Positions 26,320 through 60,842 of a DNA stretch of 64,000 nucleotides are shown here, piece after piece; within the stretch, counting starts at the first letter, position 1, and every line of letters begins with the position of its first letter. The translations under genes were made by a program, and so were the position numbers. The stretch is from Datnioides undecimradiatus (lineage: Eukaryota; Chordata; Actinopteri; Lobotiformes; Datnioididae): contig WARS01000054.1 in the NCBI GenBank assembly GCA_008933995.1, positions 2,347,001-2,411,000 on the forward strand, given 5' to 3'. The notes beneath the pieces are model-generated. The model did not search any database. It saw only the letters and a program-made list of their open reading frames with translations, and was not told the DNA's origin.

Positions 26320-27340
26320 TTACATTTTGACATAGGACCCCTTATTGGATAGGAGCTTCACAATTCTTGCATCCATGGAAGTTGTCAGTGTTTGGATGGT
26401 TTCTGCTGGAATTTCTTTGCAGAATGTCAGAATAGCCTCCCAGAGATGCTGTTTTGATGTGAATTGCCTCCCACCCTCATAGATCGTTTGCTTCATGATG
26501 CTCCAAAGGTTCTCAATAGGGTTGAGATCAGGGGAGGATGGGGCCACACCATGAGGTTTTCTTGTTTTATGCCCATAGCAGTCAATGATGCACAGGTATT
26601 CCTTGCAGCATGGGATGGTGCATTGTCATGCATAAAGATGATCTTGCTACGAAAGGCACGCTTCTTTTTTTTGTACCACGGAAGAAAGTGGTCAGTCAGA
26701 AACTCCACATATTTCACAGAGGTCATTTTTACACCTTCAGGGACCTTGAAGGGGCCGACCAGCTCTCTCCCCATGATTCCAGCCCAAAACATGACGCCAC
26801 CACCTCCTTACTGATGTCGCAGCCTTGTCGGGACATGGTGGCCGTTCACCAACCATCCACGACTCCATCCATCTGGACCATCCAGGGTTGCACGGCACTC
26901 ATCAGTGAACAACACTGTTTGGAAATTAGTCTTCATGTACATGTAGGCCCACTGCAGGCATTTCTGCTTCTGCGCTTTGGTTAAGGGTGGCTGAATGACG
27001 ATGATGATGGTTTATGCATAACTGCAACCCTCTTGAGGATCCTACACCTTGATGTTCTTGGCACTCCAGAGACACCAGCAGCTTCGAATACCTGTTTGCT
27101 GCTTTGCAGTGGCATTTTAGCAGCTGCTCTCTTAACCCGACGCATTTGTCTGGCAGAAATCTTCCTTATTGGTCCTTTATCTGCTCGAACCCGTGTGTGT
27201 TCTGAATCGGCTACAAATCTCTTTATTGTACGATGATCATGGTGAAGTTGTTTTGAAATATCTAAAGTTGTCATACCTTCTCCTAGGCATTGAACTATTT
27301 CTCACTTTTCAGCAGCAGAGAGATCCTTCTTCTTCCCCAT
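26320..27340 (-). pseudogene. Tc1-like transposase, pseudogene
   Basis: The natural start is the ATG at 27340-27338 (M-G-K-K-K-D-L-S). A TGA at 27304-27302 breaks it after 12 codons, and the frame then continues through an N-terminal helix-turn-helix region. Frame breaks occur near 26984 and near 26545, and an in-frame TAA is at 26810-26808. The catalytic residues are still visible: Asp in L-F-T-D-E-C (26903-26901), Asp in F-M-H-D-N-A-P (26627-26625) and Glu in N-P-I-E-N-L-W (26514-26512). Bridging the last frameshift, I count 37 residues between the second Asp and the Glu, so it appears to be a DD37E rather than a DD34E enzyme. Two stops and two frame breaks make it non-functional. Confidence 0.9.
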
Positions 27341-32876: not shown

Positions 32877-35541
32877 GGCACACGCACAAGCATAAGCATG
32901 CACACAATCTTGTCCTGGCCTACACTGCAGCCATATTTCTGAGAAGAGGAAAAACTATTTCACACACAGACTTATCATTGCTCTGTGTCAGACAGAAAAG
33001 CCTCTCTGGGTCTAATCTATCAAGGTCAGCAAGTGTGGCCCGGACAAACAGCATGTTGTTCCATCCCACTGCTCCCTGCTGGAGAACACAACATCTGACT
33101 GGCTCAGCTGAGGGATGACTGACTGATCCACCTGCTGATGTACTGCTATATCATAATGAATTCATCTTGGGGTTGGAAAAAATCTGTCTGGTATTGTTTC
33201 TTTTCATTGAAATACTAATACAGTAAACGCACCACACATCTGGTCCCTGTTGAGTCCACCCCCCAACACCACCACACTGTTGTTTCCCAGGATTAAGTTC
33301 ATTTTATTGTATAGTGATGCAGATATAATCAGTTTAATCACTTTTATTAACATTTATGAGGCTGTTCCACTTTGTTGTGGTATCAAAATTTAAAAAAAAT
33401 ACCTACACTGACATTTAATAATGAGCATAATATGAGATTTTAATATTCAATAAATCTTCACTTTAATCAGAAAAGTAGTTGAACTGGTCTCTCTACATGA
33501 GCAATCTCTGACCTCAATGAGACATGGATAAAGGTTCATTCTGAAAGAGAAAAAAAAAATCACGCTGCTGAAACAGATGACATGCTGATAACTTCACACT
33601 GTGCTCGCTCCACATACCAATATACTCAAAGGTAGTATTGAACAATCCAAACTAGTACCAGCGGGAGAAAAAATAAACAGTGAGCTTAAACAAACAGTTG
33701 AGAAATGCAGTAATTTGCTAAAAGTTGGATGAAAGGACCCATACCAGGCTGAAGGCTTTATTTCTGGGCACAGATTTAAAAAATAAGAGATTTAACATAT
33801 CTGTTGGTGAGCTGCAGAGGTGTAGGTAGGCAGATTTTGTTGTGTTAAGACAAAGCATGACTACTGAACGGAAAGACATGAGATTGGTATCAAGCCTCTT
33901 TACCTTCCTCTCTGCAAAGCAGCAAATAAACATATTTTGTAGCATTCCTGCAAGATGCTATATTTTAATGAAAGCAGTATAATATTCAGTGGCTGTCTGC
34001 TCTATTTACATAAATGAAGTTAGACTAAATATTACACCACCATTGATAAAACCCACACTATCCTCCACACAAAGGCCAGAGGTCACCAGAAGTTATAAGG
34101 CCGCAGACAGATTCACCACCGTGCTAACAGATATTTCAAGCAGGGAGGACAGCAGCAGAGCAGCCCATCCCCAGCTACTGACCAATTTAGAAAGCAGATG
34201 TCACTCTGCAGCAACATCTGCGCTCGACTGCCCCTGTATTCCACTTTTCATATTCTGTGATTTAGTGATACTGATTTATTGGTACTTATGTAACCTTTTG
34301 CTTACCAAACGGCCCTGTGTAAACATTCCAAAAGCAAAGTTAAATCTGCCACTGGGTTTATTAAGCCAAATTTACCCAGCATGGGCTGTGTGGGTAGCCT
34401 ATGATTTGTCCCAACAACGCCAGCAAAGCAGCGAGGAAAGTCTGTCCACCTCCTCCACAATGACGCCATAAGCCGGTGAGCAGAATGTGATCAAGGTTCC
34501 ATTCATGAGTAAAATGTAGAACAGATCAGACTACTACACCAACTACTGCTGGGGGTTTCTGAGTGACACACTGACATTTTGCAGAAACATTGTTGCAAAA
34601 GTTGCGGTTGATTTCATTAGATCCCACAATGGATAGCGTATGATTTTGTAATTAATGATGTCAGTGTCCCCCCCCCATGATGGTGGAAAGTGAATTTGCC
34701 CTCCATCTTAATCTCTTCAAAGGCAGTATGTCATAACTCACCTCCATCAACTTGAATGTAAACCGACCTATTGACAGACGGCAGACACTATCATCATCAT
34801 CACCACCCTGCTCAAGGATGAGGAGGTGCATGGTTCAGTGATGGAAAGGTGAGAAGAAGAGGTGAGAGGAGGAGGAGGAGGAAAGAGGACAGAAGTTCAG
34901 TTGGACAGACAGAGAGCTGTAGAGCTAAAGATAACAGAGGGGAGGGAGATAGAGGTTGGTGTGTACGTGTGTGTGTGGGGGGGGGGGGTTATAAAAGAAA
35001 ATGGGTTAGAGGATTTGGATGCAGGGAGCATATCCATCAGGGATCTTTTCTGGTATCAAACTGGAGCGATCAGTGATAAAAAGTCAACCTGGAAACGGCT
35101 GTAGCTGCAGTGGGAGTTCACTGGGCTTCAAATAGGCCTGTGTGCCCCCACTCTCACTCTATCACTTCATCTCTATGTGTATGCCCCCAACCTCCACCCC
35201 CAGACACTCTTGTTGCCTTTATAATAACCAAAGAAGCAAGTAATACAAGTTTTCATTCTATTCAAGCTGGCACTAATGGCCATTCTGCAGTGATCTCTAT
35301 GCACATGCCGTTGTCCCCGATCTATACAGCACAGAGGATCTGCAAACATAATACATTCCAACTCTCAACGCTCTCCTTCCAATCATATGACCACTACAGA
35401 ATCTCTCAATCCCTCCTCCCTTCCTCTTCGCACTTCATCTCCCTCCTCCAAAAAAACTCCACAAAAGAAAAGAAAAATGAAATGAGGAGAGGGTTTTCTT
35501 CTTTCTGCTGCGCCCCACCCTTTTCTAGATGGGGGGGGGGG

Positions 35542-35864
35542 NNNNNNNNNNNNNNNNNNNNNNNNNNNNNNNNNNNNNNNNNNNNNNNNNNNNNNNNNNN
35601 NNNNNNNNNNNNNNNNNNNNNNNNNNNNNNNNNNNNNNNNNNNNNNNNNNNNNNNNNNNNNNNNNNNNNNNNNNNNNNNNNNNNNNNNNNNNNNNNNNNN
35701 NNNNNNNNNNNNNNNNNNNNNNNNNNNNNNNNNNNNNNNNNNNNNNNNNNNNNNNNNNNNNNNNNNNNNNNNNNNNNNNNNNNNNNNNNNNNNNNNNNNN
35801 NNNNNNNNNNNNNNNNNNNNNNNNNNNNNNNNNNNNNNNNNNNNNNNNNNNNNNNNNNNNNNNN
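35542..35864. other. Assembly gap (323 N)
   Basis: A run of N follows an 11-base G homopolymer (35531-35541). No feature should be read across it; the open frames that span it are meaningless. Confidence 0.99.
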
Positions 35865-35918
35865 TAGCATGGACTATGGCGATCCTTGGTGATCATGTCG
35901 TCAGTGCTTGTCTTCCTA

Positions 35919-35937
35919 AGATGTGTATAAGAGACAG
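35919..35937 (+). other. Tn5/Nextera mosaic-end adapter, assembly artefact
   Basis: AGATGTGTATAAGAGACAG is an exact copy of the 19-bp Tn5 mosaic end used in Illumina Nextera libraries. It starts 55 bp after the gap. The bases from 35865 to 35918 may be library-derived or misjoined sequence too. This is a sequencing artefact, not fish DNA. Confidence 0.93.
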
Positions 35938-36111
35938 GAGAAGAAGAAGAAGAAGAAGAAAAAAAACATAATTTATCTGTGTATTATCAAGAAAGGCAGA
36001 CACTTTAATCAGTCAGCTATGAAGTCAGTATTTCCATTCTTATCTGTCGCAGGAGTGGAAATGGAGAGGAGATAGCGTTCTGGGAGCCCATCGGTGGGCA
36101 GGAATGATAAT

Positions 36112-36152
36112 GGGGGGGTTGGGGGGTGAGGGTGGGAGGGAGGGGGGCAGGG
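36112..36152 (+). other. G-rich tract, possible G-quadruplex
   Basis: Six or more G runs of three to seven bases are separated by one to three bases, which fits a classical quadruplex pattern. It lies just before a GATA-motif cluster. Confidence 0.5.
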
Positions 36153-36179
36153 CTAGGCTATTGGACCGCTGTGTCAGCG

Positions 36180-36210
36180 CTATCTGCACCCATTATCAAC
36201 AGCTTTATCT
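36180..36210. promoter_or_regulatory. Triple inverted GATA cluster
   Basis: CTATCT (36180-36185), TTATCA (36193-36198) and TTATCT (36205-36210) are evenly spaced 12-13 bp apart in the same orientation. Spacing near one helical turn would place bound factors on similar faces of the DNA. Confidence 0.45.
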
Positions 36211-36521
36211 GCCCTACCATCAGCCTCGCTGTAATGGGGCCAGTTCAACTTTCCACATTATCATACCGCCAAGACCTGGTTTGCCAAGGCTAGGGGTCTG
36301 GCTGGAGACAGAGAGAAAGAGGAGGTGGGGGCAGATAGAGAGAATAGAAGAAGGGGTGATAGGAAAGTAGAGGTGGAATGATAGAGATAGGGGGAGCGGT
36401 GTTTGAAAAAACAGTGGAGGGGTAAGAGGAAAAAGCCAGATGATTATTTAAAAAGGAAAAAAATAATTAGTTGATGAAAAAGCAAAAAGCTGGAAATGAG
36501 TGGATGTGGGAGAGGGATGTA

Positions 36522-36547
36522 ACACACACACACACACACACACACAC
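36522..36547. repeat. (CA)n microsatellite
   Basis: Perfect CA array of about 13 units. Confidence 0.9.
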
Positions 36548-37766
36548 GTCCAAAAATCACTGCAAAGCTTCATTAAGAACATGACAAGCATCTGATTTAA
36601 CCTGATACCACAGCAACGCTTTGCTTTGTGTTGCTTTCTGTCCACGCACGAAAGAAGATTTTACTGCGTGATATCCTGTCTCTCCTGGCTGTTAAGTTAT
36701 ATTAGAGCGACACGCCCATAATAAATGATGTTACAGCCAGGTTTCATTAATCTGAACCATAAAGTCAGTTATATAGATCCCTCAAGCTTTATCTACGTGT
36801 CTATCGAAAGAGACGTTGAAACAATGCATCATAAAAGCCAAAACATTATACACAAGATGAAAATTAAGCAGAGTGTTGATTTTTTTTCCTCTGGAATGAA
36901 ATATGTGTTAAATTAAACATGCTGAAGGGCAACTCCAGTCATTTTGTGTGGCACCTCTATTAAGTTAAGGGACTCACAAAGTGCCAGCAGCAAATATGCC
37001 TTAAATGTTGGATCCTAGTATGGGCCAAGCATCCGAACCTCTGGATCCTGAGCATGTTTCTGTGACATCCTTACTTTATGGTCTCGCTTACACTGAGCCT
37101 ACACTTTAATCTGTGGAAAGACAGATTCTAACTCACACTTTTACCACATTGCCTCCAAGTTTTTAGAATGAAACTACATCAAAATCTGCAAATTCTGAAG
37201 TATGTCTACAAACGCGGCTATAAAACACTTAAATGTGCAGATCACAGAAACGGTTGTGAACTTTCTGACTTTTCTGACTTGTTGAATAATCGTTGATGAT
37301 TAATGAATCTTTCATATCGTGACCTTTTTAAGCAGAAACAATGATTATCCTTTAGTTCGTTCACTGCAGCCTGAATGAATGCCTCTGGACAGTCGGTCAG
37401 ACAAAAACAAATATTCACCTGTGAATCACATTTTCACATGGATCTACATGCAGTCATTTGAAGTAAACTGATGTTTTGTCACAGCCCGTGTGACTGTGAG
37501 CTGCAAGTGGTTCAAACCAAGACGGACGAACCTTAACCCAGGCTTAAGAATCCTGAACCCTTCAAAACAAAAACAATACAATCTCTGACTGCACAGTGCT
37601 GCAACACTAAGAGCTATAACCAGGATGGTAATATGATGATGATCTTTATTAATATACCAACTCTACTTTTACATCAAGCAATTTATATTAAATGCTCCTT
37701 AGGTTGTCTCACCTTTGGCACATACCAGTCTATGAGCACATACTGTAAAGCTAGACACTAACTCAC

Positions 37767-40928: not shown

Positions 40929-41443
40929 AAAGTTCACATCAAGCTAAAAGCAGAACAAAGAAGGAGGAAAAAAACACAAGGGAAAGCCACCAAGGCGGTG
41001 CATGAGTCTTCTGGCTGTGTGTTTGTGTGTGTGTGTGCTTGGAATTTAGACATGCTTGTGTTTTATATTTCGCTTTGGCTCACAAAGAATGAATTAATCT
41101 CTCAATTTCGTGTCCATATAACAATCACGTGACCTGAGCCTTGTCAGACTACTGATAAAAGAACAACAGAGTAACATGTTCCCTTCACACAGCCGCTACA
41201 TGCTCAATTGGAACCTGTCTCCAGTCACTTAGAACATCTCAAAATACACATCTTATATAAGCTTTCGAAAAGTTTATCCACTGTTTTATGAACCAAAAAG
41301 GAAAGGGGGAGGAGGAGCTGAGTGTGGTGATTTCCTTGTCTGGCCTCTGCAGGCGTCCTGGTTTGCTTTAAGCTGTGGGAGGCAGCGTATTATTCATGCT
41401 GACCTCTGAGCTCTAGTACTGATGTCATAGGAACCAAGCGTTT

Positions 41444-55722: not shown

Positions 55723-57853
55723 CAGTCTCTGATCAAATGCCCAACCAGAGAGGAGAACACACTGGATCACTGTTACACCACAATAAGCGGAGCATATCGT
55801 GCAGTGCCCCGCGCCGCCCTCGGACTATCTGACCACGTCATGGTCCACCTGATCCCTGCATACAGACAGAGGCTGAAGCTCTCCAAGCCTGTGGTGAGGA
55901 CATCTAAAAAGTGACTAACGACTCGGCCTCTGTGTGGAAAGGGCTTAGGCAAATCACCAACTACAAACCTAAAGCCCCCCATTCCACTGACGACCTGCAA
56001 CTAGCCAATCGTCTGAATGAGTTCTACTGTCGCTTTGACGGACTATCAGCCAGCCCTGACACCTCCTCCCACCCCATCAACACAGTCATTCACACTCCCC
56101 ACACCCCAGAAGACACCTCACCGAAGTCCACCTCGTTCCCCTCCTCTCCCTCCACAGCTACAACCCTCTCAATCCTGGAGGAAGATGTAAACAGGCTGTT
56201 CAGGAGACTGAACCCTTGCAAGGCTCCTGGACCAGACGGTGTGTCCCCCTCCACCCTGAGACACTGTGCGGACGAGCTGACTCCAGTGTTCACAGACATT
56301 TTCAACACCTCTCTGGAGTCATGCCACGTGCCAGCCTGCTTCAAATCCTCCACCATAATTCCAGTCCCCAAGAAGCCGAGGATCACTGGACTTAATGACT
56401 ACAGACCTGTTGCACTGACGTCTGTAGTCATGAAGTCATTTGAGCGCCTGGTTCTGTCCCACCTCAAGATAATCACAGCCCCCCTCCTGGACCCCCTGCA
56501 GTTTGCCTACAGAGCCAACAGATCTGCAGACGATGCAGTCAACGCTAAGATCTTGTTTGTGAACTTCAGCTCTGCCTTTAATACAATCTGCCCAGCTCTC
56601 CTCCAGGACAAGCTGTCCCGGCTGAGCGTGCCTGACCCCATCTGCCAGTGGATCACTGACTTCCTGACAGACAGGAGACAGCATGTGAGGCTGGGGAAGA
56701 ATGTCTCGGACACCCGGACCATCAGCACCGGTACCCCGCAAGGTTGTGTTCTCTCGCCTCTTCTCTTCTCCCTCTACACCAACTGCTGCACCTCCGGTCA
56801 CCAGTCTGTCAAACTGATTAAGTTTGCAGACGACACCACCCTCACTGGACTCATCTCGGACGGGGATGAGTCTGCCTACAGGAAGGAAGTGGACCGCCTG
56901 GTGTCCTGGTGCGCCGACAACAACCTAGAGCTGAACACCCAGAAGACAGTGGACGGTAGACTTTCGGAAAGGGTCGGCTCCATCGCTCCCCCTCACCCTG
57001 ACAGAGTCCCCCATCTCCACTGTGGACTCCTTCCGCTTCCTGGGTACCACCATCACCCAGGACCTCAAGTGGGAGCTGACCATCAGCTCTCTCATCAAGA
57101 AGGCCCAGCAGAGGATGTACTTCCTGCGGCAGCTGAGAAAACTCAATGTGCCAGCCAGGATGATGGTTCAGTTCTACACTGCCATCATTGAGTCCATCCT
57201 CACCTGCTCCATCACAGTGTGGTACACTGGGGCCACTGCCAGGGACAAACACAGAGTGCAGCGTGTTGTGCGCTCTGCTGAGAAGGTGATCGGCTGCAGC
57301 CTCCCATCTCTCCAAGACCTGTACATCTCCAGGACTCTGAGGTGTGCAGGTCGGATCACAGCTGACCCTTCTCACCCTGGACACAGACTCTTTGAACCAC
57401 TCCCTTCAGGCAGAAGGTTACGGTCCATTCGGACCAGAACCTCACACCACAAGAACAGCTTCTTCCCCGCTGCTGTTGGACTGTTGAACTGTAATTAATC
57501 ATACTGCACTGTCACTTTACTCCAGGACAGCTACTATACCATGCCCTGTCATGACCCACCTACTGACTACTTGCACTGTCTACCTACTGTAGACACACTT
57601 AACTCTTCTGTTCATTTGTTCTGTTCATTTGTTAATACGTTGCTTTATTTTTGCTTACTTAGATTTTATCCTATTTATCTAATTTTATTTTATTTTATTT
57701 TACCCCATGCATGCCTCTTATTATATGTTACTTATTTTATGTTTGATGTATGCACCAAACCGCTAAGTCAAATTCCTAGTAATGTGAAACCTCTTCACTT
57801 ACATGGCAATAAACACTATTCTGATTGTGATTGTGATTCTGATTCTGATTCTC
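55723..57853 (+). mobile_element. L2/CR1-like LINE, 5'-truncated and inactive
   Basis: The copy begins within the endonuclease domain (N-T-L-D-H-C-Y near 55757, S-D-H-V-M-V-H-L near 55830-55853). It jumps by an internal deletion at about 55910 into the region before reverse transcriptase, and ends with an AATAAA (57808-57813) and a short TGATTG/TGATTC tail (57820-57852). Tails of short repeats rather than poly(A) are typical of the L2/CR1 group. It sits inside the hAT element and is therefore younger. Confidence 0.88.
55911..57498 (+). pseudogene. LINE reverse transcriptase, pseudogene
   Basis: The first frame (55911-57191) carries A-P-G-P-D-G-V-S, N-D-Y-R-P-V-A-L-T-S, F-A-Y-R-A-N-R-S, G-T-P-Q-G-C-V-L-S and F-A-D-D (56823-56834), the ordered motifs of a non-LTR reverse transcriptase. 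The correct frame is lost near 56950 and resumes in the frame 57022-57498, which holds the thumb and C-terminal part (K-K-A-Q-Q-R-M-Y-F-L-R, S-L-P-S-L-Q-D-L-Y). About 20 residues are missing just before motif A. In motif A, where the first catalytic Asp belongs, codon 56562-56564 encodes Asn. The copy is therefore dead by deletion, frameshift and active-site loss. Confidence 0.87.
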
Positions 57854-59259: not shown

Positions 59260-60842
59260 GCCAGGACCCCCGTCAGGGGGACATGGTTGCAGCTGAGAAG
59301 CGGGCATCAACGGACTCTCACGAACTGGCTTGACCCTGGAGACGTGGAAGGTTGGGTGGATCCGCATGGCACAGGGCAGCTTGAGTCTGGCAGCCGCAGG
59401 GTTGATGACCTTCTCACTTGTAAACGGCCCGATGAACTTAGGAGCCAGCTTCTTGGACTCCACCCTCAGGCGAAGGTCCCGGGTTGAGAGCCACACCATC
59501 TAGCCCATCAGATAAGTGGGAGCCCAGGAACGACGGCGGTTGGCGGCCATCGAGTAATGGGCAGCCGCTCATAGGAGAGCGGCTCTGGCCTGGGTCCTGG
59601 TCTGGCGGCAATGGCGGATGAAGGCCTCGACGGACGGACAGGAAGCTTCCCTCTCCAGAGCTGGGAACAGTGGCGGCTGGAAGCCATAGGCGCACTGGAA
59701 GGGAGAAAGTCCAGTGGCGGAGCTGGTCAGGGTGTTGTGGGCATATTCTACCCACAGTAGCTGCTTGGACCAAGTCGAGGGGTGTTTGGACGCCATGCAG
59801 TGAAGCACCATCTCGATCTCTTGATTCATCCTCCCTGACTGGTCATTGGATTGGGGATGGAAACCTGCGGACAGGCTTATGGTGGCCCCGATGAGGCTGC
59901 AGAAGTCCCGCCAGAATACAGACGTAAACTGGGGACCCCGATCCGAGACCACATCAGATGGAAGGCCGTGGAGCCGAAACACGTGCTGCAGAACTAGCTC
60001 AGCAGTCTCCTTGGCCAACGGAAGCTTGGGTAGGGGCACAAAGTGAGCCATCTTGCTGAACCTGTCTACCACCGTCAGGATTGTGGTGAATCCACCCGAC
60101 AGTGGCAGACCAGTAAGAAAGTCCAATGAAATATGGGACCAGGGCCAATGTGGCACAGGCAGAGGTTGCAGGTAACCAGCAGGGGCCTGGCGGGAGGATT
60201 TGTGTTGACTGCAAATTGGGCAGGCGTTGACAAACTCTCTTGTGTCTTCCTCCAAAGTGGGCCACCAGTACTGTTGCTGCAGAACCTCTTTGGTGCTTGG
60301 ATGACAAGTGAGCCGGGAGCTGTGGGCCCATTGCAGGACGTCAGACCTCAAGCCCTGAGGGACAAACAGGCGGTCATGGGGACAGGAACTGGGACCTGGC
60401 TGATCCTCCAAGGCGGCTTTTACCCACTCCTCCACCTCCCAGGTGAGAGAGGCCACCAGATGGGGAGCAGGGAGGATGGTGTCAGGGTCAGTGTCTTCTC
60501 CTGGCGAGACAGGGCGTCGGACTTGACACTGTGGGAGCCCGGCCGATAGGAGAGGGAGAAGTTGAACCTGGTGAAGAACAATGACCACTGGGCTTGACGG
60601 GAGTTCAGTCTCTTAGCCAAAAAGGATGTACTCCAGGTTTTTGTGGTCAGTCCAAACTAGGAAGTGCAATTTTGTCCCCTCCACTCCTCCAACACCAGCT
60701 TCACCGCCAACAGTTCCCGGTTCCCAGTGTCATAATTTCTCTCTGCTGTAGACAGCCATTGGGAGAAGAAAGCGCAGGGGTGCAGTTTTTGGTCCTCAGC
60801 TGAACATTGAGAGAGGACGGCTCCAATGCAGGTCATGGGCAA
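59257..60842 (-). pseudogene. Gypsy pol remnant: RNase H and integrase
   Basis: RNase H begins near 60840 (G-A-V-L-S-Q, then C-A-F-F-S-Q, then N-R-E-L-L-A-V-K) and, through two frame changes, continues with [11 protein letters not shown] and K-S-D-A-L-S-R-Q. Integrase (frame 59569-60588) has a zinc-binding region ending C-P-I-C, the first core Asp in S-L-D-F-L-T-G and the second in S-D-R-G-P-Q-F. At 35 residues further, where the catalytic Glu belongs, the sequence has Gly (D-Q-S-G-R). After two in-frame stops (near 59569 and 59500) the GPY/F-type tail follows (K-F-I-G-P-F, H-P-T-F-H-V-S). It cannot make an active enzyme. Confidence 0.88.

Follow-up and report, generated by a model that had tools for sequence, protein, structure and literature searches.

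Linked-read adapters and their carry-over into assemblies

Single-tube long fragment read (stLFR) sequencing is a linked-read method of MGI/BGI. According to two papers (PMC7235238, PMC7751402), transposons that carry a capture sequence are inserted every 200-1000 bp, the transposon-bearing long DNA is captured on beads and a bead barcode is ligated. A further paper prints a command for filtering stLFR reads that contains a 45-base -F adapter and a paired -R adapter (PMC10989976). PMC7235238 describes how the Mekong tiger perch was assembled from stLFR data by Supernova and then GapCloser, so that at least one such fish assembly is in print. The Tn5 mosaic end (ME) also occurs in a different, ring adapter (PMC7357533), and adapter contamination of microbial genome databases has been reported (PMC11536531).

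As a control for the appearance of ME leftovers, viral contigs were scanned for the ME, and the matches listed comprised at least 127 copies in at least 120 loci; since the control is viral and covers the matches listed only, it illustrates how Nextera leftovers look and not how frequent stLFR leftovers are. Among these listed viral matches, an i5 or i7 Nextera flank was present at 112 of the 127 MEs (60 i7 and 52 i5), ten MEs had no more than two bases outside them, five were unclassified, and none had an stLFR flank. Of the five unclassified copies, three (L026, L105 and L116) have a flank that resembles i7 or i5 but differs at a single base; the flank of the other two (L061 and L090) is less clear. 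Almost all of the listed viral copies (125/127) lay no more than 90 bases from a locus end and faced inward; the two exceptions, both with an i5 arm, were 101 bases in (L120) and 2167 bases in (L005). The latter is a public viral contig in which a Nextera i5-ME adapter (2141-2186) lies inside the contig just after NN. There, NN is followed by a few bases, the i5 arm, the ME and then sequence, which is the same layout as at the site described below, from another kit. Its edge position and an ME that points inward are what that site has in common with adapter carry-over in public assemblies, where leftovers lie at the ends of contigs or the edges of gaps; the site differs in the kit of origin and in lying on a eukaryote-like scaffold.

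The gap and the 73 bases at its edge

Within the window, by which we mean the whole 64-kb stretch of DNA that was analysed, there is a single N run, 323 bases long, at 35542-35864. An exact copy of the 19-base ME, AGATGTGTATAAGAGACAG, is present on the + strand at 35919-35937; it starts 55 bases beyond the N run, with 54 bases intervening (35865-35918), and both the coordinates and the distance had been given correctly in an earlier note on this DNA. Even when up to three mismatches were allowed, this was the only ME match in the window, and at the same tolerance 100 dinucleotide shuffles gave a mean of 0.07 matches, with at least one match in 7 of the 100. The expected number of exact ME 19-mers, given the base composition and both strands, is 7.9e-7, in agreement with the claim that a chance occurrence is negligible.

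The -F adapter, as it appears in the command printed in PMC10989976, has a single occurrence in the window: its reverse complement is identical to 35893-35937 at 45 of 45 positions, a stretch that takes in the ME and, of the 54 bases between the gap and the ME, the 26 nearest the ME. These 26 bases (35893-35918, + strand) form the inner part of the stLFR capture sequence. Elsewhere in the window, the best ungapped match to the 54 non-ME bases was 28/54. The reverse complement of all of 35865-35937 is identical (73/73) to what we take to be the full stLFR forward read-through adapter. The remaining 28 bases (35865-35892, + strand) are presumably the outer constant part of the adapter; a search of open-licence papers found no print of them. 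The suggestion that 35865-35918 might be adapter-linked was therefore borne out, by 26 bases that match the printed adapter and 28 that match the presumed full adapter, and the adapter is larger than had been described, since the entire 73 bases read as adapter. Compared with the stLFR forward adapter, the site agrees at every printed base, at every base of the presumed full form and in having the ME adjoin the insert, and no difference was seen in the sequence itself; the barcode and the reverse adapter are absent. The -R adapter, in the form in which PMC10989976 prints it, was not found in the window, and the stLFR reading does not need it.

Judged from its sequence, the 73-base stretch is very probably adapter left over from a linked-read kit, and not biology. 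The alternative, genuine DNA of the organism, genomic or from a mobile element, with an ME at its end by coincidence, has nothing in its favor beyond the presence of the sequence in the assembly, and we regard it as so improbable as to be practically negligible in view of the expected number of the 73-mer (1.8e-39, base composition, both strands), its identity to an adapter printed in the command of PMC10989976 and its position abutting the gap. By megablast, nothing in phages, plasmids or E. coli genomes matched the 73-mer, and no exact match to it was present in the genome contigs or viral contigs searched, where its 39-base core was likewise without a match; with their content of prokaryotes, phages, plasmids and viruses, these databases have little bearing on fish. 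As for a possible misjoin across the gap, which the earlier note had raised, direct repeats of at least 20 bases, which would suggest one, were not found in 34500-37500, and the one inverted repeat pair in that region is made of CA-rich repeats.

The window also contains retroelement frames and putative transposase frames. A reverse transcriptase frame at 55908-57191 matches PF00078 (E 3.3e-25), and a retroelement integrase frame on the - strand at 59569-60612, open over 347 codons, matches PF17921 and PF00665. A frame at 56935-57498, which overlaps the final part of the reverse transcriptase frame, matches ALKBH8_N (PF09004, E 2.7e-16); in this setting it probably belongs to the retroelement, and the ALKBH8_N name could therefore mislead annotation. 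On the - strand, the frames in 26320-27301 look like a decayed transposase of the Tc1/mariner type (family judged by eye): the frame at 26320-26625 has a weak transposase match (PF13358) below the curated cut-off, and those at 26493-26807 and 26981-27301 have no Pfam match. In the two sets of frames submitted to the Pfam search, four of seven were without a match in the first and one of eight (that to PF09004) was matched in the second. Together with the many CA repeats that the translations reveal, these frames suggest that the DNA comes from a teleost fish. Searches for RNA families and tRNA genes gave no hits.

Identity of the kit

The earlier note had rightly recognized a Tn5-based library adapter left at the edge of the gap, but had named it Nextera. 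The ME is common to both kits, and the likeness of the site to a Nextera i5/i7-ME adapter is confined to these 19 bases. Outside the ME, the Nextera arms would be TCGTCGGCAGCGTC or GTCTCGTGGGCTCGG, and no piece of either the i5 or the i7 arm of 10 bases or more was found in the window. The 26 bases that adjoin the ME are instead those printed for stLFR in the filtering command of PMC10989976. Because of this flanking sequence an origin from the Illumina Nextera kit is refuted, unless a custom Tn5 library carried the stLFR capture sequence, and we consider it exceedingly unlikely.

Another Tn5 library with the same capture sequence, from a related MGI/BGI protocol or from custom oligos, would leave the same artefact, and kits that share oligos are indistinguishable by their sequence. 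Among the open-licence papers searched, however, the inner adapter sequence is in print only in an stLFR paper, and we judge such a source to be very unlikely. In a comparison with other adapters by exact pieces of at least 12 bases, the best were a 14-base piece of an MGI adapter, which fell inside the 73-mer, and a 14-base piece of a PacBio adapter, which occurred at two places in the window; no such piece was found in the window for the TruSeq, ONT or two reverse MGI/stLFR adapters. At 41244-41255, 12 bases agree with part of the stLFR adapter, which was taken as a chance match. The site is thus an ordinary assembly artefact that was correctly spotted and whose kit was misnamed.

Probable origin of the adapter and consequences

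Our preferred reading, to which we assign a probability of about 0.97, is that 35865-35937 is synthetic and consists of the ME and the constant stLFR capture/ligation sequence, retained from untrimmed read-through of short inserts. The observed support for it is the identity of 45 bases to the printed adapter and of 28 to the presumed full one, the orientation, and a location abutting the gap. Read-through itself, the program responsible for adding the adapter and the barcode as the stopping point are what we infer. Tn5 would have cut the genomic DNA immediately left of 35938, and short-insert reads on the - strand would have passed this cut into the adapter, which was then presumably left untrimmed. 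Consistent with such a course, the order on the - strand, from about 36000 down to 35865, is genome, ME and capture sequence, which is the order of read-through, and the ME faces the sequence to its right, as do the inward-facing MEs in 125 of the 127 listed viral control copies. An assembler or gap filler may next have extended the contig leftward with adapter reads to the end of the constant part, beyond which the bead-specific barcode would begin, the reads would disagree and an N run would be left. Extension would stop there because the constant part is common to all such reads and the barcodes differ between beads; the adapter and the gap meet with no base between them, which fits this putative stopping point. 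Supernova followed by GapCloser is one pipeline that could leave such an adapter. It is plausible that the gap itself is owed to the run of 11 Gs at its left edge (35531-35541, + strand) and to the (AGA)n array to the right of the adapter (35939-35960, + strand), with which the presumed genomic sequence starts.

Tentatively, and at somewhat below even odds, we propose that this stLFR adapter recurs at many other gap edges in the assembly, as it may in other published stLFR animal genomes; if true, the cause would be gap filling with untrimmed reads, together with a submission screen that did not include the adapter sequence. When this assembly or others from comparable linked-read libraries are screened, the stLFR adapter should be searched for at contig and gap edges alongside the Nextera and TruSeq sequences. 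We agree with the recommendation that the assembly needs trimming at this site: 35865-35937 should be masked and the gap treated as 35542-35937. The site matters for data quality only, as 73 artificial bases at the edge of a gap.
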